Assembly (NCBI RefSeq): GCF_964204865.1
Contig: NC_135250.1
Location: 9,858,001 to 9,922,000, forward strand
Direction: 5' to 3'
Source of the DNA: Styela clava
Lineage: Eukaryota; Chordata; Ascidiacea; Stolidobranchia; Styelidae
Length of the DNA: 64,000 nucleotides
The position numbers and the translations under genes were made by a program. Shown piece after piece: positions 2,334-63,205 of this stretch. Each line of letters opens with the position of its first letter. The stretch's first letter is position 1. The notes below the pieces were generated by a model. That model had not been told where the DNA came from. It did not search any database and saw nothing but the letters and a program-made list of their open reading frames with translations.

Positions 2334-4441
2334 TAGGCTTGCACGTAATTTACGGATTTACGGAATTACGTAATTATTTGGAGTTACGGAAGGGAAGTTA
2401 CGAATTACGTAAAGTCGTAATTATTGCATTGAAACGAGCTTTCTTCAAAGCAGTCAATTTCGTCGATTGCGAAAATGAAAGCTCAACAAGTAGAAGAAGT
2501 TAGAGTTCCGGTATTCGCAGCCGTTTTTCTCTCTCTTGTTACGTAGGTGAAGGAAGGCATGACGCGTTGCCATTTACTAACCTATTATCAACTTATCTGG
2601 CGTGGCCAATGTAAATTATTAACGTAGTTAATGGGGGAAGAACTGAGTAGGGCCGTTTGACGCCAACACACCTGGTTTTAACTTTTCCCGCAACTTAACC
2701 GTAGATAAGGGATAGAATTGCGTTGAGACCGATTGACGCCAACACACCTGGTTTCAACTTCTCTCGCATCTTATCTAGCATGGCCATGGCCAATGTACAT
2801 AATAACCGTAGGTAGGGGGGAGAATTGTGTTAAGACAGATGGACGCTAACACGCCCGGTTTCAACTTCTTCGGGTGAAATGACTAATGAACGCAGGAGAT
2901 CAATCTATCAAACATTGTCTATCAAACAGTTGTATCCATTTTACTTTTATTTATTATTTACTTGTTCCAGTTTTCCGTTACTTATGGTATATATGTTCCG
3001 TTTCTATTTTATTCTATTTTATAGTCACGCGTTCGAATAGTGGGAATTCCCCACCAAGTGTGGATTAGCAATGCTTAACCATTCTTTATTGTTAATATCA
3101 ACACTTGATATATGAACATGGAATATCATATTGTTTTTGGCTGGTTCATTTCAGACTTGGGGTATAAACAGGAAAATATCCATAACCTTTCAACACGACT
3201 ATCTTGTGAAATTTAACGAAGAGCTTTCGTGACGAATTGGAACCAAATAAGCGAAAAGAGCGATTGATCACTCGCGTCAATACCTCGCCGTGATAATTAA
3301 TGTCGCGCTTATCAAATAGCAATATGACGACAAAAGAGAGATTGCGTAATGAACCAAAACGACGGATTCCTCCCGTTGAAAATTTAACTGCTATCATATA
3401 TAATCAAATATGAGCCTGTGTGTTTATTCTGTGCGAGATCCATTTTCTATTACAAAATCTTCATGTTCTGTTAACGGTTTTATCGTTATATATCAGTCCG
3501 GACTTGGCCTTGCTCATGATGTTTTTCACAATTCCTATCAATATTTCGGCCATATTCTTACCAAATGCGGCAACTTATTTTGATTTATTGTCGACTTGAA
3601 TACCACCGGCACTCGACCAAACTTTTGTCAATCTTGGCCGATAGGATCGCCAACTTGAGTTAGCAAATAAATGTTGTGAGTGTAAAATAAATGTCACAAA
3701 ATGCATTGTTTTGCGATATAACTTTGTATTTTCGAAGAAGGCATGTCATATAAGTTCGGTATTTAAATTATACGCAAATAAATATTATTTGATCTAAATT
3801 TATCGCAAATAATGTTATAAACATTCAGTCCGCGAAATGATTGAATGTAAAATGAAGCATGGTAATAGGAATATCGTCAATAAGTCGACATCAATAATTA
3901 TTATTATAAAAATGCTAACAAGGCAGTAATGTCGGATAATGCAGAAAACGCTGCAAAAACAAGTCTTCGTCGCGAGGAAATCGCAAGTATAATTAAATGA
4001 GAAAATACGCTCGTCGTTGGTTAATAAATTAAAAACCCGTAATTCTTATTCAGTACTCAGGTGGTTTTAAAAAACTATCGTTTCCATAAATATCCGTATA
4101 CCAGTGTCGGTAATGATAAAATAAAATTGATCGCATAAAAATGGGACGGTTAATTTGCGAAGGTGATAAAGAAAAACCAAAGCTAACACAAAAGATAAAA
4201 ATCAGAATAAAATTAATTTGAATTCACTCCTTGATAGTTGTCTTTAACATCTGCCGCCGGCGTGTAGTACTGCCAAGAATAGGAAAACCCAACTTCAATG
4301 TCCCATTCGGAAAAAAAGTGGATTCAATTGGTTGTTACGATAGGTTTAAATGCGTGGAAAAATATCGCAATTACGGGGTCATTACGTAATTAATTTTGCC
4401 GTAATTACGGAATTGATTTTTGTCAATTACGTGCAAGCCTA
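2334..4441 (+). mobile_element. hAT-type non-autonomous element, copy B, complete (2108 bp)
   Basis: It starts TAGGCTTGCACG and ends CGTGCAAGCCTA. It is flanked on both sides by GTGTGTGT (2326-2333 and 4442-4449), an 8-bp target duplication as expected for hAT transposases, although the site is itself a GT repeat. Compared with the copy at 48246, an inner block containing CCAACACACCTGGTTT occurs in three tandem versions (about 2620-2880), which helps explain the greater length. No transposase frame was found; small frames inside have no recognisable domain. It is presumably mobilised in trans. Confidence 0.85.
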
Positions 4442-32741: not shown

Positions 32742-34433
32742 TTAATCCTGGATTATGCAATTTTGAACAGTGAAAAGTTCACAAGAGTTTATTCTGATTG
32801 ACCATATAACTCTCATATTTGTGAAGTAGTAAGGTAGCTGAACACGTTCCCATTGGCCTTCAGTAACATTGAATTTTTCCAGAGTGCTTGGATTCTGTTC
32901 ACAATCACCAACCGCATAAATGTTTTCATTTATACTAAAAGCATTAAATCTCCAACGTGGATTGAGCATTGAAGTCAGTTCCGTCCAGATATTACTGTCT
33001 GGATTGTAATACTCAACATCTACTAATCGCTGTGATCCTTCATTTCCACCCAACACATACAAGTTATTTTGGAAAATCACGACTGCAGGAGAACTTCTAG
33101 CTTCTTGCATAGGAGGAATATTAGACCAGGTCATGGAAGAAATATCCAATCTTTCAACATTTTTGAATCTCCATTGGTTATCCATATTTCCACCCACACA
33201 ATACAAATATCCTTTCGAATAAACAGGGGATGAATTTATACATGGCATCTTCCTGTTGACTGATTTGGTCCAAATATTTTTTAAAGGGTTATATATTTCA
33301 ACTGATCTTGATCCACGACACGGGTAAGACACTCCAGCTACAAATATATTATTCTTTACAATTACTGCGGGTGGCCAGCAACCATGACTATCGAACATGT
33401 CAGGTAACCTTCTCCAAGAGGCCAAAGCATCAATGTATTTAAGACTATAAACGAATTTCTTTTCAGTGAAGACATAAATAACGTCATGCATTGTTACTGC
33501 GGTAAATGAATTTGAAACCATATCATTATGAAGTTGATGCATTTGAGTACATTTACCAGTACGAGGATTAAAGATTTGTATATATCTGGAATTGTCATCA
33601 AAGAGTGCAATTGAAAAATCTTGATTGTCCTCAAAATCATCGCTTTCATGAGCTATCTCAATATTGCCCAAAAAGGACTCGCAAAGTAACCTGACACAGT
33701 CAATAGATGCAGACACTAGATCTATGCTTTTAAGAAGATATTTTCGATAGCTAAGAGGAAGCCGAGATAAGTCGATGCTTTCAAGTATGGAATAAAAATA
33801 TTTTGATCTTTCTTTCAAATCGAATTGAGTCCAGGATATCAACGCCTTCACCTTTCGCTGAGCTAATGACTTGTTCTCAGCTGAACCAATCAAAAACGCA
33901 ATATAAGAACTATCAAGATGGTTGAACTCCTCTATTTTGGAGATTGCTGTAAAATTTTCCAAAGCAAATTCATCGCATTTCTCCTCTACAGTTTTACAAT
34001 TATAGGTTTTAGCCAAATTCTTGATAAAAAAGAAAGTTGACATTTGAAGTTTGTTAAGATATGTATCTGCAATAAGATTACACAGCTTCTGTAGTTGAAG
34101 CTGGTGTGCAACATGAATCAAATTTTCGCGATCCTCATTTGAAACAATGATATTTCCTCCGTAAATAAAGTCAATACAATGCTTGATGCTATCAACATCA
34201 ACTTTATCAACCTTCAATTCAATATATCCAGACTCATTTGCAATCGTATTATCCTTCAACATATCTTTGAAGTAACCCGAACTAGCCGATAAAATGTTGC
34301 GATGGACAGAAAATTCTTTACAGCCGACTTTAATAAGCAAGTCACAGTCATGTTGTGTTTTCCTGAATTCATCCAATTCCTTGAAAACATCACTGAAAAG
34401 ACTTTTATCTTCAAGAATAACATGACTTTCCAT
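32742..34433 (-). CDS. BTB-BACK-Kelch protein (KLHL family), intronless
   Basis: An uninterrupted 563-codon frame. Residues about 28-125 form a BTB domain (HDCDLLIKVGCKEFSVHRNI, LSASSGYFKDML, IKHCIDFIYGG). About 130-240 form a BACK domain (LNKLQMSTFFFIKNLAKTYN, HLDSSYIAFLIG, KALISWTQFDLKERSKYF). From about 285 to 545 run Kelch blades, several with paired Gly and a Tyr/Trp (SVEIYNPLKNIWTKS, GYLYCVGGN, NNLYVLGGN, VEYYNPDSNIWTEL). Such proteins usually dimerise through BTB and link substrates to the Cul3 ubiquitin ligase; the substrate is bound by the propeller. I cannot assign a KLHL subfamily. The start is the Met of MESHVILEDKSLFSD, followed soon by the conserved DV/HDCDL block. GTF3C5 lies 1.1 kb upstream on the same strand. 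Confidence 0.92.
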   Translation of the reverse strand: MESHVILEDKSLFSDVFKELDEFRKTQHDCDLLIKVGCKEFSVHRNILSASSGYFKDMLKDNTIANESGYIELKVDKVDVDSIKHCIDFIYGGNIIVSNEDRENLIHVAHQLQLQKLCNLIADTYLNKLQMSTFFFIKNLAKTYNCKTVEEKCDEFALENFTAISKIEEFNHLDSSYIAFLIGSAENKSLAQRKVKALISWTQFDLKERSKYFYSILESIDLSRLPLSYRKYLLKSIDLVSASIDCVRLLCESFLGNIEIAHESDDFEDNQDFSIALFDDNSRYIQIFNPRTGKCTQMHQLHNDMVSNSFTAVTMHDVIYVFTEKKFVYSLKYIDALASWRRLPDMFDSHGCWPPAVIVKNNIFVAGVSYPCRGSRSVEIYNPLKNIWTKSVNRKMPCINSSPVYSKGYLYCVGGNMDNQWRFKNVERLDISSMTWSNIPPMQEARSSPAVVIFQNNLYVLGGNEGSQRLVDVEYYNPDSNIWTELTSMLNPRWRFNAFSINENIYAVGDCEQNPSTLEKFNVTEGQWERVQLPYYFTNMRVIWSIRINSCELFTVQNCIIQD

Positions 34434-35525: not shown

Positions 35526-37235
35526 TCAATTGTCTTCAATGTTATCATCAAAATCATCTGGCGAAAAGGCTTCGAAATCGTCTAAGAAATCTGTTAATTC
35601 TTCATTGAAATATGGTTGACTGAGATCAACAAAATTATTAGAATCTTTTAACGTGTTATCAACTTCTAAATTTTCATCTTCCTCTTCATTTAGTTCAACA
35701 TCATCCATAACTTCTGCATCATTGTCAGATAAAATTTCCTCCTGCTCACTACCAGAATCCCCAACTTCTTCATTTAAACTTTGCTTCTCCTCATCACTAG
35801 ATAAATCTAATAGAAGATCTTGGAAGGAAGGTTCCTCAAAATTTTCAGTGCTTTTAGATACCCGAGACTTATATTTTTTTCTGGTTGCTCTTTCCATGTT
35901 TATTATCGGCTGCTCCATTCCTTCTGTATTTGATATAGTATTTTGAATATCTTGTGATAAAATGTCTCTTATTTTTGCAGCCATACCCTTGGGATACCAT
36001 CCTGATTTCATGTCACATTTGTTAGATAATCCTGTTTGACTTTGCACTATATCTTTTACGGAGGGATGGAGTATATCACATACTTGATAAAAAGTTTGTC
36101 GATATGCTGGAAGTACACCAGACTTGAAGATATACATAGCTTCTGTTTGCTCTTTGCTATAAGAGGAGGATGCAGTAGATTTTTCATCTAAATTATTCAC
36201 TATATTAGATTCGAGTTTAGATCGGGGCATCAGGTTTGGTAGTCTGTAAGAAAGGGTGCTACGTTTTGCTTTGATTGGTATGTGTGGAGTGTTTAAACCC
36301 TGTCTAACTCGGAAGTCAAGAAGCTGATATTCGGCAGCTCCTGGGTCCTTTCTAGGATCATATCCAAATTTGACCCATAAAGAACGCCAGGGACCTGTGA
36401 TAAAATAATAAGCCAATGCAGGCAATAGAAATTTAAGTCGTTCCCCACTACATTGAAGTATACATCTAATTGCATTTTTAGACCATATGGGACGTTTCTC
36501 AAAAAGATCTTTAATCCCTTGCACTAGCCCTTCTTCAGTTTTCTTAATTTTTTCCAAAACTTCTTGTGCTGCAGGCAAGGGTTCTTTGGGGGTCCAATTC
36601 TCCTCATATTTAAGATATTGAGCAAAGTGAATCCGCCGCGGTCGAGTAATACCAATTTTATTTGGATTTCCATGCGACTGATTATATTTTGGTACACTTC
36701 TAAATAACACATCTAGTTGTTGGTCAAAACGACTGAACGTAGCAGGCGGAAGAAAAAGTGGTACCTCATTTGTGTATGCAGCATCATCAAGATTATTAAC
36801 TTTAAGATGCGGTATCATGTTCACTAGTTTATCATTTTCCACATCATTATGCAAGGGAAGATATTGAAAATCACAAAGAGCATTGAACTTGTAAGCAGTC
36901 TCTACAACACCAACAAGTTCAGGACGATAGCGAAACTCATCCGCGCTTGAATTGTTGTTTGGAGACTTTTTCCGTCTATATTTCTTTACATTTAGTAATA
37001 ACGCATTTACTTCTTTGCGATCGCCACATACAGCATGACAACAAGGATCATCTGGTCGAAATCGTAAATCAATACGTTTGTTTTCTTCTCTATATGTTCC
37101 AGAAATGTTTTTCTGTCCTCCGAGTGTTTTTAGCATTTTGTCGGCATCCTTAACGATTCCTGGATATTCAATCCAGACAAGAGGTTTCTCCTGATTAAAT
37201 TTAGGTATGACATCACAAACAGAATCTTTTTCCAT
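35526..37235 (-). CDS. GTF3C5: General transcription factor 3C subunit 5 (TFIIIC63), intronless
   Basis: An uninterrupted 569-codon frame; human GTF3C5 is 519 residues and has many introns. The N-terminal Tau95-type triple-barrel region shows LVWIEYPGIVKDADKMLKTL-like opening, DPCCHAVCGDR, NALLLNVKKYRRKK and GVVETAYKFNALCDFQYLPL. The central DNA-binding region shows KRPIWSKNAIRCIL and the highly conserved AYYFITGPWRSLWVKFGYDP followed by RKDPGAAEYQLLDFRVRQG. The C-terminus is a long Asp/Glu tail, as in the family. The protein is part of TFIIIC (tauA side with GTF3C6), which binds the A-box of tRNA genes and recruits TFIIIB for RNA polymerase III. Start chosen at the first Met, MEKDSVCDVIPKFNQ, just before the conserved block. 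The absence of introns is odd and discussed under findings. Confidence 0.95.
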   Translation of the reverse strand: MEKDSVCDVIPKFNQEKPLVWIEYPGIVKDADKMLKTLGGQKNISGTYREENKRIDLRFRPDDPCCHAVCGDRKEVNALLLNVKKYRRKKSPNNNSSADEFRYRPELVGVVETAYKFNALCDFQYLPLHNDVENDKLVNMIPHLKVNNLDDAAYTNEVPLFLPPATFSRFDQQLDVLFRSVPKYNQSHGNPNKIGITRPRRIHFAQYLKYEENWTPKEPLPAAQEVLEKIKKTEEGLVQGIKDLFEKRPIWSKNAIRCILQCSGERLKFLLPALAYYFITGPWRSLWVKFGYDPRKDPGAAEYQLLDFRVRQGLNTPHIPIKAKRSTLSYRLPNLMPRSKLESNIVNNLDEKSTASSSYSKEQTEAMYIFKSGVLPAYRQTFYQVCDILHPSVKDIVQSQTGLSNKCDMKSGWYPKGMAAKIRDILSQDIQNTISNTEGMEQPIINMERATRKKYKSRVSKSTENFEEPSFQDLLLDLSSDEEKQSLNEEVGDSGSEQEEILSDNDAEVMDDVELNEEEDENLEVDNTLKDSNNFVDLSQPYFNEELTDFLDDFEAFSPDDFDDNIEDN

Positions 37236-44189: not shown

Positions 44190-44816
44190 TTACAGAATAC
44201 TACACCAGCGATCAATAAATCCTGTTTTTTGCTTAGTTTGTTCTGCTACAACAATTGTATTTTTTGCTGTTGTATTTGAGTCCATCCTGCTATCCATTTT
44301 TCTTTTAATGTCTCTTGCAATAGTATAGAATGCCTCTTCCACATTTATACTAGCTTTCGCACTTGTCTCCATGAATTTTATTCCATATTCGACAGCTAAG
44401 GTTTGCCCACTTTCTTTTGCTATTGCCCGCTTGTCATTCATATCACATTTGTTTCCGAGAATCATTTTCTCAACATCTGAAGATGCATGCTCTTCAATAT
44501 TTCTTATCCAGTTTTTAATGTTGTCAAAAGACTTGGAATTTGTGATATCATAGACTAACATGATTCCCATAGCGCCTCTATAGTAAGCAGTAGTAATGGT
44601 CCTGAAACGCTCTTGTCCAGCTGTGTCCCATATTTGTAGTTTAATTTTTTTACCGTCCAGTTCGATAGTTCTTATTTTGAAGTCAATACCAATTGTTGAT
44701 ATAAATGTAGAATTGAACTGGTCTTCCGAAAATCGAAATAGTACACATGTTTTTCCAACTCCGCTGTCTCCAATTAAAAGAAGTTTGAACAGATAGTCAT
44801 ATGTTTTACCTGACAT
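44190..44816 (-). CDS. RAB8: Small GTPase Rab8, intronless
   Basis: A complete 208-codon frame. The P-loop GDSGVGKT is at residues 16-23, the effector switch has [12 protein letters not shown], switch II is WDTAGQERF, and the guanine-specificity motifs are NKCD and ETSAK. The start [16 protein letters not shown] and [20 protein letters not shown] are characteristic of Rab8 rather than Rab10 or Rab13. ITTAYYRG retains the switch II threonine that LRRK2 phosphorylates in mammalian Rab8. The C-terminus CSIL is a single-cysteine prenylation motif like the CSLL/CVLL of vertebrate Rab8B/A. Rab8 directs post-Golgi vesicles to the plasma membrane and cilium (family knowledge). The hypervariable tail is Lys/Thr-rich and diverged. 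The single exon is discussed under findings. Confidence 0.95.
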
Positions 44817-46538: not shown

Positions 46539-47881
46539 TTACATATCTGTATCTTGAGTTTGGTGATATATCTCGTCCAACCCAGGTAATTCACCGTAGT
46601 CTTTTCCTCTCATGTCATACCCTGACTTTGCGCTGCAACTGGATAATTATTGTGTGTCAGATTCGTAAAGTAAAACCATCGTAGGAAGTATTGGTAAATT
46701 AATCGAATGAAATAATTAACCAATGCTATGAGTGATTAAATATTCTCAGTGTTAACAGCCCTCACAAATTTTGCTAGTGTTATATTCCTCAAAAATCTAA
46801 AGTTGTGACAGACCCTTCTCGGTACTCCTGAGGTATGCGCACCAAGATGTCGCACAACCTGAACCCTAACCTGGTACACAACCTGAGTTCAGTGTGTTCG
46901 CCATCTTGGTGCGCATACTTCAGGAGGTCCCCCTTTTCAAAATACTCCTTGTAATGAAATAATAACCGTTCATACCTGAAACCAAAATGTCTTAAAACAA
47001 CCACTATCAATATAATTATCAGTAAAGTTCCGAACAGTGAACCCAAAACGATTCCAACAATGGCACCTGGATAAAAAAAAAATGAATTAATAAAAGCTCG
47101 ACTGAGATGATAGAAACAACTGATAACCCTAAACATAGACAGCTCAAAAGGATATTTTATATCGTTTTGACGACTCCAAAAAAGTCGTCACTAACTAACA
47201 AACCCTAAAAATTAATGCTTTAAAATATATTCCACATATCACTGTTATGTTTTATATGTTTTTTTTTTTCAACTTGCTTCTGGGTCAGATGATGTGTTAT
47301 ATGAGAAGCTTACAATTTTGACTTTTACTGGATGTCTAGTCAGTCCTGTATAAAGGCGCGATAGTTAATATTTCTAACAGTCGGAATCAAATAATCCAAG
47401 CAAGTGCACCGATTCTCAACCAGTGGGCCATGGTCCAATTATCGACTGCAGAAGCTTTTTCAGATGAGTCACAAGGATAGAATTATTGATAAATTATTAA
47501 ACTTTGATTGTATGAATGAATGATAAATGAACGATGCTGCTGTTTTTGTTACTGAGTGGTAATTCTCATTTTAATTATTATAGTGAAAAGATTTATTTTT
47601 TGTTTTTCTTGTTGTTTTTCCCTTGCATGAAAAAGTTAGTGAACCACAGAATTTTTTGTGCAACGTAAGTGGGTCACGAAAAAGATTGAGAACCCCTTCC
47701 CTAGAGTATATTGTATTATATGAAGCTTATAAACTAGAGCATTCCATCTACTACAAAACACAAAAGAGCACAAAATAAAGCATATTTGTACAAAAGTAAA
47801 AAACGAAGAAGTGAGCTAATACCATTTGTAATATCATACCGTCAGATAAAGATGATGGTTCACTATGTGGCGTTGTTGTCG

Positions 47882-47915
<34 letters not shown>

Positions 47916-50900
47916 AGTTTCTACATAATAAGAGAAAACGTGTTTAAAAATACACATGTCTATTATTTGGCGATGTTTCTGAATTTGTTTGATTTGATGC
48001 AATTATCTTTTCAATATTAGGTTTCCATTATGAGGAGAATAAAGGTTTGTGTAACACAAAACATGTATATGTTAGGTAACGCAATTTAAATAAAATAGGA
48101 TAAACTGTCTCTTTTAATCTTTTATATAATCAACTTTTGGTGTTTCAAATATTCATGCATAAAGAATAAACCACAAATGAATGAGTTAAATTAGTTTTAA
48201 AACGTCGATGTTATCACCTTCTGTGGAAGTTTCTATATTGGTGACTAGGCTTGCACGTAATTTACGGATTTACGGAATTACGGAATTATTTCGAGTTACG
48301 GAAGCGAAGTTACGAATTACGTAAATTCGTAATTATTGGTGGAGCGCTTTCGCGATTGAAACGAGCTCTCTTTAGAGCAGTCAATTCCGTCGATTGTAAA
48401 AAATTAAAGTTTAAAAAGTAGAAGAAGTTAGAGTTCCGGTATTCGCAGCCGTTTTTCTCTCTCTTGTTACGCAGATGGTGAAGGCATAACGCGTTGCCAT
48501 TTACTAACCTATTATCAACTTATCTAGCATGGCAAATATACATATTAAGCGTAGATATGGGATAGAATTGTGTCGAGACCGATGGACGCCAACACACCTG
48601 GTTTCAACTTCTTCGGGTGAAATGACTAAAGAATGTAAGAGACAACTTACCAAACATGGTCTATTTGTAAATGCCGTGATAATTAATGTCGCGCTTATCA
48701 AACAGCAATATGACGACGGAAGAGAAATTGCGTAATGAACCAACGCAACTTAGTCTTTTCGTCATCGGTAAAGCGATTCAGACGGCAAAGAAACAAAAAA
48801 AGGGGGGATTTCCCATGTTTATATTGCGCGAGAGCCATTTTCTATTACAAAATCTTGATGTTCTGTTACAGGTTTTATCGTTATATATCTGTCCGGACTT
48901 GGCCTTGTTTTCACAATGCCTCGCACTATTTCGGCCAAATATGTCTTTACAATATCTTTAAGTCTTTACCAAATGCGGCAACTTATTTTGATTTATCGTC
49001 GACTCAAATACCACCGGCACTCGACCAAACTTGTGTCGACTTGAGTTAGAAAAGTAAATTAATATTTTCGTGAGTGCAAAATAAATGTCACCAAATGCAT
49101 TGTTTTGCGGTATAACTTTGTATTTTCGGAGAAGGCATGTCATATAAGTACGGTATTTAAATTATGCGCAAATAATCAATATTTGATCTAAATTTATCGC
49201 AAATAATGTTATAACATTTAGGCCGCGAAATGATTTAATGTAAAATGAAGCATGGTAATCGGAATATCGTAAATAAGTCGGCATCAATAATTATTATAAA
49301 ATGCTAACTAGGTAGTAAGGTCGGATAATGTAAAAACACGGTACAATAACAAGTCTTCGTCGCGAGGCAAGCGCAAGTATAATCAAACGAGAGAATACGC
49401 TCGTCGTTGATTTATAAATTAGAAACCCGGAATTTTTATTTAATACGAAACTCGTATTTATACGTTAATATGATTTTAAAAAAGTTAATTATCGTTTCAT
49501 AAATATATTACCACTTACCAGTGTTGGTAATGATAAAATTGATCACATAAAATTGGGTGATAAAGTTGATAAAGGAAAATCAAAGCTAACACAAAAGATA
49601 AAAATCAGAATAAAATTAATTTGAATTCACTCCTTGATATTTGTCTTTAGCATCTGTCGCCGGCGTGTAGTACTGGCGGAAATATGAAAACCAAACTGTC
49701 CCAACTGTCGATGTCCCATTCGGAATAGAAGTGGATTAAATTGGTTGTTATGATAGGTTTAAAAGTGTGAAAAAAATATCGCAATTACGGGGTAATCGTA
49801 ATCGATTTGGCCGTAATTACGGAATTGATTTTTGTCAATTACGTGCAAGCCTATTGGTGACTGATGTCGTTGCCACATTAGACGCTGTAAAACAATTTGA
49901 CAAACTGTCAATAATTTTGTTTTATTAATTTAAAGAACAATAATAGTGGGCGACAGATTTTTGACACTTTTTTGCTATAAAATATATATTTGAAAATTTG
50001 GCGGAAGAACCTTTCGAATTTATGATAATTTTGGCAAAAGATTTAGAGAATCCCACTAAAAAAGAGACTCTGTTAATTTTTTTTTTTTTTGATTACGAGA
50101 GTTTCTCGTGAACATAATTTTTTTAAATATACATTTGCGAATAGAATAAACATATCCGTGCTGATTTACATAAAAACATGCATGAACATAACAGCTTTTT
50201 CAAATGTGATTCAAGGGTGCTTCTGAAGGCGTAGCACGTAAATCAAGATGTTCATATCTATCCTAAGAAGAAAAAAAATCGATAAGACAGCTTTAACCAT
50301 ATGACGCGGGGGTATGCAACCTGCGACCCGCGAGCCGAATGTGCCACCAGCGAAACGAGTTTTTAATTACTTTAGTTTAATTAATCTGGTACGTGTGAGT
50401 AATTTCGATTTGCGTTGTAAAGCGTATACCTCAGTCCAGTGGTTCTCAACCGGGGGCCGGGGCCCCCCAAGGGGGACACGAAGCAGTTTCAGGGGGGCCA
50501 CGACACAAGTCTAATAATTGGTCATAAGGCGACTTCGTTTGCATAATTTCCTTTCAAAATCAAATTCCCTGTTTTGGCGTTCACCGCATTTTTATTACCT
50601 AACTAGGTTATTTGCGATCACTGGGTGCAAACACTTTCTTGTGCGTGAATTGTTTGATCATACTGGAATTTGGAATCCACCAATCAAAATAGTTCGCTGA
50701 TAGGCCGTCTAACCTGCAGACGGTCGGTTTCACTAGACTGCAAGATAACTTTCGCTATCTCAATATAGATGCGATGTCCCATATGTAAATTTATAATGCC
50801 TAACATGCGAAAATGGAACGACAATTACGTTGGCTTTACCAAAGTAACTCGAGGTGACAGAGAATGTGTTCAATACCTGCATTACTCGTATGTAATGAGC

Positions 50901-53900
50901 AGTGAATCATTACGTTCACCTTAACACCAAAAGTGAAGTGACAAAAATCATACGCAGGTGGAAGACTTTGTCACAACCTTTGTGCGAATCTGTTTTTTCT
51001 GATCTTGTTAGCATCAAAACCGTCTCAAGTTTGACAGTGACATTCGTCTGGCTATATCAATGACGGTCCCTAGAATTAGGAACCTCCTCAGACAATCCAA
51101 AGCGCAAGATACACATTCGTTGTATACTAAAAAGCTTGGCCTTCCTTGTCTGTGGTTTGTTTTTGCATTCCACAAAAAGTCGTAAAACATACAATCCAAC
51201 ACGTTTAGATTTGGAATGACGCACAGGGGGCCACGAGAGCAAAAAGGCGCCGGAAGGGGGCCACGAACCATAAAAGGTTGAGAACTGTCTCAGTCCAATA
51301 TATTTTCTATTTCTACGACGTTACAATGACCTAACAGCTAGCTTGTGCGAAGCGATCAACGCATGTAGTTAGATCAATAATCAAAAGTTTTGTGCCTGCC
51401 TATATCAAATAAAAGTGGTTTCCGCGGTTCCGCCCAGTTATTTTTATCTGGCCCTCCCGCATTAAAGGTTGCACACTCCTGATATGACGATTCATGCCTC
51501 TCTCTAGTTCAGAAACCCAGTTCTGACAAAGGAATAATTGAAGTTATTCCTTTTATATGACGTAACTAGAATAACTTGGGCAGTCGCTTAAATCGCCATA
51601 TCACAGTTTGTAATTGGGGATCAAAAAGGCGACTCTTGAGCATGAATATACTCACCAGGAATTTTAAGCCCGGAGGCAGCAAATATTGACTTTTCGGTTG
51701 CATTCGAATTCCGATAGTCATCAATAATATCTTGCTCTGATATGGACTTGTCAGCTTCGATTTCGACTCTAAAATACAATGAGATCGGCATGGCTTTGAC
51801 ACACTTTACTTTCATGAGATCGATTATAATCACTGTAGGTAATATTGTTTCTGTTTTTGCATGAATATGGTGTTCTATTTAATTTTCCATTCACTAATTC
51901 ATCGCAACACAAGGTAACACGATTTATGTATCACGAGTAGGTGGTATAAAGGAGACAAAAGCTAGATAATACGTTTGTAGCATATTATGTTGTTGTTATT
52001 TGTTTTCTTTTTGTTCGTATTCCAAGCAAATAAATGAGTTTCTTTTCATTATAGGCGAACGATCTCCAGATGTTTTTGCATGAAAAGAATAGCTTTGAAT
52101 AACTTTGTTTAAGTAATATGAAACCGTGGTATTATTAAATCGACGTATTCATTAATAAGAAGGAAGGGTAAATTAGACATTATGAGCCCTGTTTAACTAT
52201 GTTTTAATATGATATCAAGTGTATAGTTGTTTCAGGTTTCTCATATTTCTAATAAACATCAACTAAAAAATATTAATCACCTGCAAATGACGCTTCCTTC
52301 TCTGAAACCTACTACTTGAATATTTCGAATTCCATTTAATGTCAGTATATTACTTAATGCTGATTCCACTTGCATTGTCAAATTCATAGATTCTTCCGAA
52401 CTAGCATTCGAAAGATTTGAACTGTACGTCCTGTTTGCTAGAGGTATCTCAAAGGCCAGGATGGTAGCTGCAGGAAAACATGAGATATACAATACTCTAC
52501 GCATAGTGTATTATTTGGGCAAGTTTATTTTTTCTAATCAGTATAAAATTATACGTATACAAATTTTGAGAAAAAAAAAGATAAACACATTGTTTTAATG
52601 GGAAAGGGAAGCCAAATCGCGAAGAACCGAAGTTGGTTATCGAGAGGCGACACACGTGGTTTTAATATACGAGTACATATACTTAAGATCGGGAAAATTA
52701 ATTTTGGAACTACAGTTATTTATTGTCGATTAGCACCGTATGGTTCTTATGCGATTCATCAAACCTAAATCGCTTAGGCTACTAGAGATAACGATTAGAT
52801 ATGTATTTCGAATATATGGAAATGTAAAATGGAAAGGATTCTTGAAATTTCGTATACGTATGTAATCAATCATTCAATTGCTTGACAGCAAACGTATAAA
52901 ATTACCGCTAATCACGTTATACATTTTACTTCCTCTTTTAGATTTAGAACGTCTGGTCATAATAGAAAAAAGCGGCTATGATAAAAAGATGAGAAAATAA
53001 ATAACTTTTCCACGAAAACCTAAATTTACCTTCAATTATGCCAGTAGTCACCATTGCGGTTGTTGAAATGTCATCGGTTTTTAGTGGTTGAGAGGTTGAA
53101 ATTTCTTCAGACCCATTTAACGCTGTTGACGTCATGATACTTTCTTCGGAGGTTGTGTCAATATCTGTGGTTGAACCTATAAAATTATAAACATGGTACC
53201 TTTTAGACAGTTTAGTCAGTGTTCCACAAAAATTTCTCACAAATGAAGGCTCAATGTACTTACTATATTTTAATAGTTTAGAAATTATTGTCTTTATTTT
53301 ATAAATTCCAAATGGCAAATGACGACTCAGCCAACTTCATTTCTAGAATATATTGTGCTATTATGCTTAGATTGTGCTTTCGCCGATTATATGAAACGAT
53401 TCACAGACAACAATTGATAATGTCCTTAAACTTTTGACATTTTATGCCACATGCAGAAAATTTTAACGGTCGTAATGAATTATATGCATTATTTTGTCAT
53501 TTTATGAATTTCACCTTCACTGAAAATAGTAGTATCTGCGATAGATGACGTAGATGAAATGGAATCGGTAGTTATTGCATGTAAGGCTGTAGTTTGTGCT
53601 AGATCTGTTGTAGAATCCGTTTCTGTGTTTGATACCACTGTACTTTGTTCAGAAACTGTAGTGTTCATAGCTGGAATATATATTATAAATAAATTCTCAA
53701 TATCAATATCAGAACAAGTGGAATCAATCACACAAGTTTACTTCTGCATTCTCAATGACTAGCCATACTTAGGGTAGGGCAACGGCAGGTATATAAAAAA
53801 AATTTGACTTAATGCAGGGGTGCACAACTCAAATGAGGGTACGTGCCAAATTTTTCAAAACAATCTTGTCGCGTGCCACGCACAATTGTGGTATTGTAAA

Positions 53901-56900
53901 TTAACTCCGTAAAACAAACAAATTGCAATAACAATACATGATAACGGATATCTATTTATTGAAACAATTTTTTGTCCTGAAAAAAAAACTGCTGTTTTTG
54001 ATATAAATGTGATATTTTAATGTATATCATAAATATTTCTTTATTTTACAAAACCGTTCGCGTGTCACGTTTGAGCGTTTGGCGTTCCAAATTTGGCACG
54101 CGTGCCTCGTGTTGTGCACCCCTGACTTAATGATATCAAGAGAGTTTTGTTCAATAACAACGAGCTCAACAACAACAACAATAAAGGGTTTAGAAAATGA
54201 TCCATAGGTCAACTTCGTGACAAACAACTACTTAATTTTACCATTGTTCACGTCAGTGGTAACAATGGTGTTCGTTGAAAATGTTTCAATAAATCAGCGC
54301 TCGTTGTTCTTACTATGTTCGGGTATGGTGAGAAATAAACTACTGACTGACTGATCGCAAACTGCAAACTTTTAAATTATAGAGAAAAGTTGGCTACTTG
54401 TTCGGCGATATTGACTACTTGTTTATCAGAGACCTTTTGTAGTCTGACTGACCTTCCGTCAGTTGCTAAAAGAAGCGCGGCCAGTAATTCACGAAATTCT
54501 ATAACGTTATAAGTTATTTTTCAAATCAGAAGATTGGTGAAACTTTTTGAAAATTTCATTTTACAGTTAACCAAGTTTAGGTGCATGTAGTCAATTTTTA
54601 TCGGACTCATTTACAAGAATTATTGCGTTATTTTATGACCCCCACCTCCACTGATGAACGTTGTCTCCACGAAATCAGACGTTGTTAACATGACATTTGT
54701 GGTAGTCGATTGTGAGGTTCTATTTTTTGATACAACTGTCGTAGAAACTGGTACCATAGTCGATAATTCTGTATTTTGTTCGTCAGCCATTGTGGTATTC
54801 ATACCTGTATATATATATATATATATTGTAATGATACATATATATTTAATATTTTAGATATATACTGATCCCTATTATGTTCAGTTGATGCTTAATACAT
54901 TGTTCTAAATTTACATATGTTTAGAGTAAATGTTTATTTGTATGTAAAAACGAGTTAACACTTAGCAAAGGTGTGAAACATTTGCCATCCAAACTTCCAA
55001 AATTACAAGATCTGGTTAAAAAGAAAAAGTGGGGCAACAGTGATAACAGAAGGAGATATGGAATATTTTTATAGCAACTTGTTATAGCCTACATGTCAGT
55101 GGCTACGTACCCATGGTGGTTGTTATTGAAATGCCATCGATTATTGGTGGTTGAGTAGTGGAAATTTCATCAAGCTCGGTTACTGTTGTTATGTTCACTT
55201 CTTCGGAAGTTGTTGCAATGTCTGTAGTGGATTCTAAAAATCAAAATTACTTTTCACCCAACGAGGTGATGTAACAAAAATTTCCTACAAACGTTACAAC
55301 TTGTAGGAACAAAGCTTAAACAAAATTGTTGATGACGTTGATCTCGCTTGTCATGCAAGCGCTTATAACTATATTGGCCTGTTCAAATATCTCACCTACG
55401 CTGAAATCCGGTGTCGTGGCATCAGACAACGACGTTGTTAGCAGTTGTGAACTTGTATTTTTGGGAAAAGCTGGAGTAGAAACCGTTATCGTGCTGGATG
55501 CAACTGTGCTTTGTCCGCCAGCCATTGGTGTTTCCGTCGTTGGATCTGTATATAGTACGCGCACTTCGTCATAAAGGTTAATAGGCTTACTTAAAAGTCA
55601 GAGCGGAAAGGTCCATTAATTTCACTAATATATATATATAGAAATTAAATTAAGCTACACTGAGTTAGGCTATGTAACTTCAGTAGTTTATGCCCAAGAA
55701 GCTATCGTGGTCTTTGACAATATATTATGCTCTCAATAATATTTGATTTCAAGAACTATATATACACTAATTAATATCAGAAAATTAGCAGAAATTTCAG
55801 CATGTTTGGCTAATACCGATCGATTTATCTCCCCATCACCGAAATATGTAGTTTCAGTAAGGCGAATCTCGAATTTCAGACCCGTACGAATTCTACGAAT
55901 TCATATTTTTAACGCGCGTATTCGTATGTGTGCTAAATTATAATATGTTATGCATTTTAAAGAATCGGATATGGAGTTTTCAACAATACCTGGTTTAGAA
56001 TACGAATAAAGTCCAACCGAAGTAGAATGCATCTGTCTTGTTCAATATTTCTGAGAAATTTTCAACAAATTTCCGAACCAATTACTGGAAGCGATATCTT
56101 ACAATGTATTGCCATACACCACAGAGTGTCTAATTTCACACTTTTATTGTTACACATCGTAGAGGTTCTTGTTGAATTTAATGAAATTCTAATGTTATAT
56201 TTTACTGGCAACAGTTTGCTCATGATTGGATCACTGGATAGATATTTCCTACCTTCACTGGTATATAGATCACTTGGTATTGACTGTGTTGTTGATACGA
56301 TGTCAGTGGTCGATGGATGTGGTGTTGTTATCAGTTCTACAATTGCAAATTCATCGTTTAAAATAAATATGTTTACTTTTAAATAATCTAATCTAAAAAA
56401 CTGACCCACCTGCATTTATGTGAAAGATAAGAGTGCGGTTTGTATATTTTGGTAATGCACTGAAAAAATCCGAAATGAAGTTTTTGGCGCCATTTATTGC
56501 AGCCTGCGTTGTTGGATTTAGAAAAGTTACTTCAACCAGGATCTTAAAAAAATAAAAAGTTTATTACATTGCATACTGTTGATGGGCCTTGACACCTCTG
56601 ACTCAATGAGAGCCTGAAATTGGATCTAGCCTGTTCCAAACCCGCGCCACTAGTCGTCTTATGACACCTCGCTTTGTGGCACGCCCTAACTGCGTCAATT
56701 GTCATGACTATTTTGACATAGACTTACAACCAACTGCATGAAAAGGATTAATAAGTACATAGATATATACAATATCAATTTAACATGCCGCTGTAGGTTC
56801 TGTAGTAAATGTGGTTATTACCGTGTCATTTCCAATAAAAGTTCCATTATATTCGAAATTTTCATTGTTTCCTTGCAGTTGACGCTTCGACCTTGACAAT

Positions 56901-57052
56901 AATTTCCCTTCATTCCCTTTAGCTATGTGCAGGCTAGGTTCCCAATTAACGGATTCTTCATATGCTTTGTAAAAATTAATACTCGAGTTGAAGACCATTG
57001 AATAGCCAGCAACCAACACAATTGCACAGATAATAATCCGTTTGTTATTCAT
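46539..57052 (-). CDS. Mucin-like single-pass membrane protein with SEA domain
   Basis: Exons: 56822-57052, 56410-56542, 56253-56336, 55396-55545, 55111-55233, 54646-54804, 53515-53670, 53030-53176, 52281-52467, 51656-51768, [51-nt exon split between 49854-49884 and 48218-48237], 47840-47920, 46976-47066, 46539-46632. Every junction keeps phase; 599 residues with, 582 without, the split exon. Exon 1 begins MNNKRIIICAIVLVAGYSMV, a signal peptide or anchor, and has a furin-like SRSKR. Exons 3-8 are Ser/Thr-rich, O-glycosylation-type segments (TTSEE, STTQP). Exons 9-10 make a SEA domain with FREGSVICRVEIEAD, where GSV matches the autoproteolysis site. Exon 13 gives the membrane helix (AIVGIVLGSLFGTLLIIILI) and the last exon a short tail with two tyrosines ending DTDM. 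I infer an apical or shed mucin. The family member is not identified. Confidence 0.8.
46821..46930. mobile_element. 110-bp near-palindromic MITE, copy 2
   Basis: Same length and arms as 12059-12168: GGTACTCCTGAGGTATGCGC at the left and CATCTTGGTGCGCATACTTC at the right, ending AGGAGGTCC. Flanks CCCTTCTC and CCCTTTTC differ at one of eight bases, consistent with an older target duplication. It lies in the last intron of the mucin-like gene. Confidence 0.85.
47411..47697. mobile_element. Degraded CAGTGGTTCTCAACC-type hAT element
   Basis: GATTCTCAACCAGTGGGCCA at the left and AGTGGGTCACG..AAAGATTGAGAACCCC at the right resemble the ends of the CAGTGGTTCTCAACC family with mutated outer bases. No clear target duplication remains. 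It lies in an intron of the mucin-like gene. Confidence 0.5.
47840..47920 (-). repeat. Coding trinucleotide repeat (ACA)n in a mucin exon
   Basis: Within exon 12 of the mucin-like gene, minus-strand ACA/ACG codons encode 16 consecutive threonines, then PHSEPSSLSDG. The tract is nearly pure (one ACG interruption near its 3' side), so length is likely to vary. The exon is 81 bases, phase 1-1. Confidence 0.9.
48246..49853 (+). mobile_element. hAT-type non-autonomous element, copy C, inside a mucin coding exon (1608 bp)
   Basis: It begins TAGGCTTGCACG and ends CGTGCAAGCCTA, with a perfect 8-bp target duplication TTGGTGAC at 48238-48245 and 49854-49861. Removing the element and one copy of the duplication restores a 51-base exon with good splice sites (acceptor TTTTACAG before 49884, donor GTGATA after 48218). 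It has no transposase frame. It shares most of its length with the copy at 2334 but has one rather than three of the inner CCAACACACCTGGTTT blocks. Confidence 0.92.
50307..51481. mobile_element. hAT-type MITE of the GGGGTGTGCAACC family, carrying a nested insertion
   Basis: Ends CGGGGGTATGCAACC and GGTTGCACACTCCTG, flanked by the perfect 8-bp duplication ATATGACG (50299-50306 and 51482-51489). Its outer parts match 17528-17808 (CCCGCGAGCC, GTGTGAGTAATTTCG, CGCCCAGTTATTTTTATCTG). The middle is replaced by the element at 50437-51287. It is located in a mucin-gene intron. Confidence 0.85.
50437..51287. mobile_element. hAT-type element, CAGTGGTTCTCAACC family, nested
   Basis: Begins CAGTGGTTCTCAACCGGGGG and ends AAAAGGTTGAGAACTG. 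Flanks CCTCAGTC and TCTCAGTC match at seven of eight bases. Inner phrases GGGGGGCCACGA and GGGGGCCACGAACCATAAAA mirror each other near the ends. Short frames (61-85 codons) give CNFEREM-like scraps without a recognisable transposase; one reading of about 51000-51110 (SSLTVTFVWLYQ, DIARRMSLSNLRRF in the opposite strand) may be a relic of the hAT dimerisation region. Confidence 0.8.
53815..54124. mobile_element. hAT-type MITE, CAGGGGTGCACAAC family (310 bp)
   Basis: Ends CAGGGGTGCACAAC and GTTGTGCACCCCTG are perfect inverted repeats, flanked by the exact 8-bp duplication ACTTAATG (53807-53814 and 54125-54132). Inner GTGCCAAATTT / AAATTTGGCACGCGTGCC further extend the symmetry. It lies in a mucin-gene intron. 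Confidence 0.9.
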
Positions 57053-62214: not shown

Positions 62215-62327
62215 CTATAAATAAGAATTACAAGAGACATTAAAAATGAATCTGATTTATTCACATTAGCAAATCGTCTAAAATAAAATACAGTAGAATC
62301 GGGATTTAGCAGATTTTCACCCTAATC

Positions 62328-63205
62328 CAGGGGTGGGCAACCCCTGGCACACGAGCCCATTTATTTGGCACGCGACGCGGCCTCGGAAACGAGATCATTC
62401 CCCTTGAGATAAAAAGTTTCCAAGACTCTGAATTATCTGATGAAACTATAGGTGTTCGTTCATTCATTATCAGTCAATAAACCGCAATTTATTTAAAATC
62501 CTTTCGTCCTTTCATGACATATGGCTCCAAAGAAATATATTATGACGTAACATATGATTGAGCTCTCGCAATATTTTGTAGAGAAGAGCACAGCGTTCAT
62601 TTGGCTACGTTCTTACATAATATAGTTCGTCTGTGCCACCCTTTTTTGTCATTTCTGCTTGATTTATGAAAGTGTACAGCTCATGTTGGTTATGGTTACT
62701 TGCTAACTTACTGTTATAAATTGATTTTGAAAGAAATATAAGTTATTAGGGAAGAGAATACGAAAGAGAAATACAGAAAACGAACTATTGCGTGATTGGG
62801 ATGCCATTCCCAAACATTTTTCGTGCCTTAAAAATTCTGCAACCGCATCATTCTCCATGTTTTCATCTACATATATGCTTGTGAATCTCTGTTCTCAGTT
62901 ATGAACTTTATTAATAAGGTTCGTAACAGTAGTTGTAGTTCGTGTATTTCTTTGAAATTTACATAATATAAACCATATTTAAAATCTCTATCAGCGGTAA
63001 TGCAGCAGCAGAAGTTTCACTGATGTAGAATAAGAAAAGTAATCATATTGCCCCGAATAGTGAATCTGTCTGTAATGTTTAAAAGGCTATTATTGCTTTG
63101 AAAGTAACAAAGCATTGTTTTCAATTCTGGTCGGCACGCGGAAGAATTTTGTTCATAAGTTTGTTCGATTTTGGCACACGAGCCAGAAAAGGTTGCCCAC
63201 CCGTG
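62328..63205. mobile_element. hAT-type element, CAGGGGTGGGCAACC family (878 bp)
   Basis: Starts CAGGGGTGGGCAACCCCTGG and ends AGGTTGCCCACCCGTG. Flanks CCCTAATC and CCCTAGTC differ at one of eight bases. Inner motifs TGGCACACGAGCCCA and TTGGCACACGAGCCAGAAAA mirror each other. GAGAAGAGCACAGCGTTCAT and TGCCATTCCC are unassigned interior. No transposase is intact. It lies just upstream (in gene direction) of the TAB-like exon at 62158, presumably in an intron. Confidence 0.85.

Follow-up and report, generated by a model that had tools for sequence, protein, structure and literature searches.

What a gene makes of a transposable element lodged inside one of its coding exons is the question raised by a membrane mucin locus of the ascidian Styela clava. 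The locus lies in a stretch of 64,000 nucleotides of contig NC_135250.1 (assembly GCF_964204865.1), hereafter the window, to which all coordinates refer. An element of 1,608 bp, flanked by an 8-bp target-site duplication and belonging to a family with other copies in the window and in the genome, separates the two halves of a 51-nt sequence, modelled here as exon 11, and the modelled exons are in frame with one another. Skipping of exon 11 is judged the most likely response of the transcript, with the inclusion of a poison exon as its main competitor.

Structure of the membrane mucin gene

The mucin gene was modelled by eye from the sequence as 14 exons on the minus strand (46539–57052, a span that includes exons E1–E8 and the introns). 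Two N-terminal exons are followed by six Ser/Thr exons (E3–E8), two exons of a probable SEA domain, exons E11 and E12, and one exon each for the transmembrane helix and the tail. Exon 9 (52281–52467, minus strand) encodes the first part of the probable SEA domain, with the residues G-S-V in FREGSVICR, and exon 10 (51656–51768, minus strand) encodes its end, closing with the phase 1 donor CTG/GTGAGT. The Pfam SEA match to this region reaches 22.2 bits (E 1.5e-4), below the cut-off of 26.4, and a comparison by sequence with solved structures gave no significant match for the SEA region (best E 0.2, unrelated). Exon 12 (47840–47920, minus strand) is a stalk exon of phase 1-1 and the predicted partner of exon 10 upon skipping. 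Exon 13 (46976–47066, minus strand) encodes the transmembrane helix, judged by eye on the conceptual protein, whose ectodomain is Ser/Thr-rich, and exon 14 (46539–46632, minus strand) encodes the cytoplasmic tail and the stop codon. This last exon, absent from the initial annotation, completes the model, and exons 12–14 are open through the transmembrane helix to the stop. Without exon 14, the transmembrane reading frame enters an imperfect inverted repeat of about 25 bp in intron 13 (46830–46930; CTCCTGAAGTATGCGCACCAAGATG and CATCTTGGTGCGCATACCTCAGGAG), which is probably a small foldback element and maintains a misleading open frame downstream of the transmembrane exon.

SEA-domain membrane mucins have a MUC1-like organisation. 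The model shares with them the Ser/Thr exons, a probable SEA domain with GSV, a stalk, a transmembrane helix and a short tail, and differs from them in its sub-threshold SEA match and in the stalk exon broken by a transposon. Exon lengths range from 51 to 231 nt, exon 11 being the shortest. All eight stalk exons (E3–E8, E11 and E12) are multiples of three with phase 1-1, so that skippability is ordinary in this gene; the symmetry that the initial annotation had pointed out in exon 11 is real, but it is not special to this exon. Two sets of stalk exons, E4/E6/E7 and E5/E8, are tandem duplicates (53030–55545). A search of 100 kb to each side of the gene revealed no tandem paralog of the whole gene. 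Exon 12 carries a coding trinucleotide repeat specifying 16 Thr, likely a second source of variation in stalk length.

Several other features accompany the gene in the window. Intron 10 contains a second hAT-like element (50437–51287) with ends CAGTGGTTCTCAACC and GGTTGAGAACTG; to judge from the repeat CTCAGTCC on its flanks, it may have produced an 8-bp duplication. More inverted-repeat elements, with ends like ggggtgcacaac and gtgggcaacc, are located at 53812–54124 and 62327–63201. Long intronless reading frames correspond to a Ras/Rab-like GTPase (44190–44816), the Tau95 subunit of TFIIIC (35526–37235) and a BTB-kelch protein (32742–34433).

The element inserted in exon 11 and its family

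The element occupies positions 48246–49853 and is bounded by identical copies of the duplication TTGGTGAC, at 48238–48245 on the left and at 49854–49861 on the right, the right copy being included in the 31-nt half of the exon. A hAT-type element with these duplications had been described in the initial annotation, and its identification is now supported by the terminal inverted repeats, by relatives in the window and by copies in the genome. The two arms (48246–48265 and 49834–49853; TAGGCTTGCACGTAATTTAC and TAGGCTTGCACGTAATTGAC) are 20 nt each and 95% complementary (19/20, one mismatch). Elements of the hAT superfamily have short terminal inverted repeats beginning C/TA-G, and those found here are short and begin TAGG; short repeats (TTACGG) lie inside the left end. 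Autonomous members of the superfamily encode a transposase that carries BED and hAT dimerisation domains. Pfam searches of 11 reading frames from the exon 11 copy detected no transposase or hAT domain at E values up to 1, the two matches obtained (E 0.16 and 0.23) being unrelated, and the presence of transposase remains was rejected on these grounds. The element is at best non-autonomous. Its CpG observed/expected ratio is 1.78, compared with 0.95 for the whole window.

A second copy in the window (2334–4441) has the same first and last bases as the exon 11 element, and most of the fetched genome copies have a perfect duplication at those ends; the ends of the exon 11 element are thereby fixed independently. 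This window copy has GTGTGTGT on both flanks, a duplication that is weak evidence because it sits within a GT run. A third copy crosses the left edge of the window and extends beyond it. The genome search covered 376.6 Mb in 379 contigs, where 40 of 2,119 first-look candidates were scored and yielded at least 43 matches. Among the matches listed, 34 of the 43 were near full length (1,461 or more of the 1,608 bases), and the first 28 of these, ordered by similarity to the exon 11 copy, were fetched. Perfect 8-bp duplications flank 25 of the 28 fetched copies, that in exon 11 included, when the comparison is anchored on the terminal repeats, the best pair of ends is taken and an 8-nt indel at the left end is allowed (the exceptions are L004, L006 and L024); an earlier pass with extrapolated ends and no such indel gave 18 of 28.

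The duplication consensus of the Ac group of hAT elements is nTnnnnAn. Among the 25 duplications, T occupies position 2 in 16 and A occupies position 7 in 18, which fits the Ac-type pattern as a tendency rather than a rule. Because of this pattern and the lack of a transposase domain in the 11 frames, the element is best read as a member of a non-autonomous, Ac-like hAT family. It resembles the Ac group also in its short TAGG repeats and internal TTACGG, and differs in its length, 1.6 kb being long for a MITE. Assignment to the Buster group was rejected: its consensus, nnnTAnnn according to PMC3517528, does not fit the duplications found here, in which T at position 4 occurs in 2 of 25 and A at position 5 in 6 of 25.

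Whether the family favours open frames was also considered. A stop-free run of at least 100 aa spans the insertion site in 5 of the 25 copies, as seen in the approximately 300 bp of flanking sequence covered; this seemed high until 20% of 2,000 random window sites proved to lie in such a run, so that these 25 sites give no sign of a preference. One copy (L005:1501–3110) follows a dynein heavy-chain exon (Pfam DHC_N1), about 28 nt beyond its likely donor; it appears to be intronic and was discarded as an exonic insertion. Another (L011) is surrounded by an open run of 128 aa that matches COG2_C weakly, under the cut-off (E 4.3e-4); this may be a further insertion into coding sequence, or a coincidence.

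Evidence for exon 11 as a probable coding exon

The 5' part of exon 11 (49854–49884, minus strand, 31 nt) has the acceptor TTGTTTTACAG just upstream, and the 3' part (48218–48237, minus strand, 20 nt) ends at the donor AAG/GTGATA. Once a single copy of the duplication is taken out, the two parts make up an open exon of 51 nt in phase 1-1; retention of both copies breaks the frame. The spliced residues, A-SNVATTSVTNIETSTE-E, are half Ser/Thr and would form part of the juxtamembrane stalk between the probable SEA domain and the transmembrane helix. The 5' half given by the initial annotation stands, while its 3' half, drawn as 48218–48245, is shortened. The Ser/Thr residues that it listed are likewise retained except for a final G, which is spurious because the reading had been continued into the intron.

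The splice sites of exon 11 were scored with two kinds of model. The own-gene models were trained on the other exons of the mucin gene, with the scores of exon 11 itself as thresholds, and are partly circular because the training exons were chosen by eye. By these models exon 11 scores above many real exons and is the sole phase 1 candidate in the 2,119-nt empty intron; no candidate exon appeared in 500 order-1 Markov nulls, and 60 window segments contained one, which was not Ser/Thr-rich. The generic model, built from consensus values, misses exon 11, whose acceptor scores 4.0, at the strictest threshold. At the middle threshold exon 11 is again the sole candidate, with 544 of 1,000 nulls giving an open phase 1 exon, and at the loosest there are five candidates, with 929 of 1,000 nulls giving one. 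Splice and frame evidence taken alone is weak under the generic model. When a Ser/Thr content of at least 50% was required in addition, a cut set after the exon had been viewed, such exons appeared in 0 of 1,000 nulls at the middle threshold and in 9 of 1,000 at the loosest. This condition is what separates exon 11 from the nulls under the generic model. A derivation of exon 11 by duplication from elsewhere in the stalk was rejected, its similarity to the seven other stalk exons being within chance (p 0.06–0.64). The gene model and the nulls with the Ser/Thr condition uphold the earlier proposal that the element splits a probable coding exon of the stalk, and exon 11 is very probably genuine.

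Age of the insertion

The 28 fetched copies were aligned together with the window relative at 2334–4441. The exon 11 copy carries 15 private substitutions in 1,608 bp (0.93%), corresponding to a terminal branch of 0.011, and its closest fetched copy is 1.37% distant. The other 27 copies have from 3 to 26 private substitutions (21 fewer than 15, one exactly 15 and five more), and 12 of the 27 are closer to their nearest neighbour than the exon 11 copy is to its own, which places it in the middle of the range. From these figures it follows that the family spread recently and that the exon 11 copy is not among the youngest. Since the element is of the cut-and-paste type, the 15 substitutions set an upper limit on the time that it has spent at this site. 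The insertion looks recent, not brand new.

The initial annotation had also regarded the event as recent, judging by the perfect duplication and the near-perfect ends. Its recency agrees with the private substitutions, but the duplication and the ends provide no date: dating by them was rejected, as most of the fetched copies have a perfect duplication and the ends are preserved even in the window copy 2334–4441, whose nearest fetched copy is 12.57% away. At a divergence of 0.93%, about 0.7 change would be expected over exon 11 and its splice sites, so that the intactness of the exon says nothing for or against selection.

Predicted effect of the insertion on the transcript

We consider it rather probable that a hAT element inserted into exon 11, that in-frame skipping from exon 10 to exon 12 is now the main splicing route and that the animal tolerates the allele. 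Mobilised by a transposase from another source, the non-autonomous Ac-like element would have entered an exon presumably in use until then, in an otherwise intact-looking membrane mucin gene, duplicating TTGGTGAC. The halves of exon 11 are now 1.6 kb apart, so that the two splice sites no longer delimit a single short exon. The main transcript would join exon 10 to exon 12 (51656 to 47920). The preservation of the frame by this junction, anticipated in the initial annotation, is borne out in the gene model, where skipping costs 17 residues and retains the membrane anchor. The predicted product is a membrane-anchored mucin with a correspondingly shorter stalk. Some transcripts probably take in a poison exon and would be destroyed or truncated, and the allele as a whole would be tolerated. 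Translation continued from exon 11 into the element yields SNVATTSVTNRLARN and terminates after 15 codons, the first in-frame stop being a TGA at 49835–49837 (minus strand); neither site model finds a donor scoring above 4 before it.

The main rival reading, to which we give a distinctly lower probability, is a loss-of-function or altered allele. In it the acceptor of exon 11 would be used with the cryptic donor CTG/GTAAGT at 49519, producing a 366-nt exon with in-frame stops (49519–49884, minus strand), and the message would be destroyed or encode a mucin without a membrane anchor. The acceptor is intact, and the donor occurs in 25 of the 28 copies of the element; its score of 8.7 in the gene model falls among those of the real donors, and its 10.7 in the generic model is exceeded by just two of them. 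The frame terminates after the 15 codons mentioned, and two ATTAAA signals lie within the element in sense orientation. On the other hand, 366 nt exceeds the length of every other exon of the model, and partial skipping would still yield an anchored protein. It is unlikely that exon 11 is a chance match and the element intronic, with no coding sequence broken. The frequency of open phase 1 exons in the generic nulls, the failure at the strictest threshold, the lack of a paralogous exon among the stalk exons compared and the position of exon 11 as the shortest exon of the model all point that way; they are opposed by its high own-gene scores, its uniqueness in the intron and the empty own-gene nulls, by a Ser/Thr content that nulls seldom equal and by a frame that holds only with exactly one copy of the duplication.

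Highly improbable, in our view, is that the element serves as a new intron, with the donor CAC/GTAATT and the acceptor CCTAG/TC, leaving 18 extra nucleotides (RLALTN) in frame. This donor lies 11 nt inside the end of the element, in the terminal repeat, and the TAG of the acceptor is made of the last bases of the element and the first base of the duplication. The possible exons so defined, of 42 nt (49843–49884, minus strand) and 27 nt (48218–48244, minus strand), are both open and of phase 1, and the geometry is exact, with 69 nt open and in frame (SNVATTSVTNRLALTNIETSTE). In 26 of the 28 copies ACGTAATT occurs no more than 40 nt from the left end, and in 27 no more than 40 nt from the right end. 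Another in-frame acceptor, 12 nt further along at 48232, reaches −1.4, a score inside the range that real acceptors span under leave-one-out. The initial annotation had suggested that the element ends could supply splice sites; a GTAATT donor and a TAG acceptor do exist there, in frame, but both score poorly. The donor reaches 2.8 and 3.5 in the two models, under all 12 real donors as fitted, although the leave-one-out scores of 11 real donors include one as low as 0.2. The acceptor, at −7.5, is under all 11 real acceptors (lowest −3.7 under leave-one-out). Moreover, the 11-base offset together with the 8-bp duplication gives the in-frame outcome by arithmetic, which counts against an intron, and the 25 sites compared show no enrichment in open frames. 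The broader idea of a family with near-terminal splice signals caught at the birth of an intron, with six in-frame residues added and the mucin still made, we regard as very doubtful.

Comparison with known systems

Precedents for intron-like behaviour of transposons exist. Maize Ds1, as described in PMC5432752, begins with TAG and carries donors at distances of 12, 22 and 33 bp from the end, and exonic Ds1 is reported there to supply both donors and acceptors. The exon 11 element likewise begins with TAG, and its possible donor lies 11 nt in from the end, compared with 12 in Ds1; it differs in the poor scores of its splice sites. Introners are transposons turned introns, some of them with duplications and terminal repeats; PMC9860276 gives median lengths of 30–654 nt and states that Introners of Aureococcus lengthen the transcript by 12 bp, or four codons. 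The element in the mucin gene resembles them in its terminal repeats, its duplication, its place in a coding exon, the possible splice sites at its margins and a possible in-frame gain of codons. Unlike Introners, this element is long, its sites are weak and its family gives no sign of preferring open frames. With intron-like geometry but weak signals and no enrichment in open frames seen at the 25 sites, the insertion of a transposon into a skippable mucin exon adds one more case to a well-known class of events.

Exon 11 offers a clean natural experiment on the way in which a gene composed of symmetric exons copes with a transposon within a coding exon; skipping, a poison exon and the birth of an intron could all be told apart at this one locus. 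Should the insertion prove polymorphic, individuals would differ in the stalk length of a cell-surface mucin.
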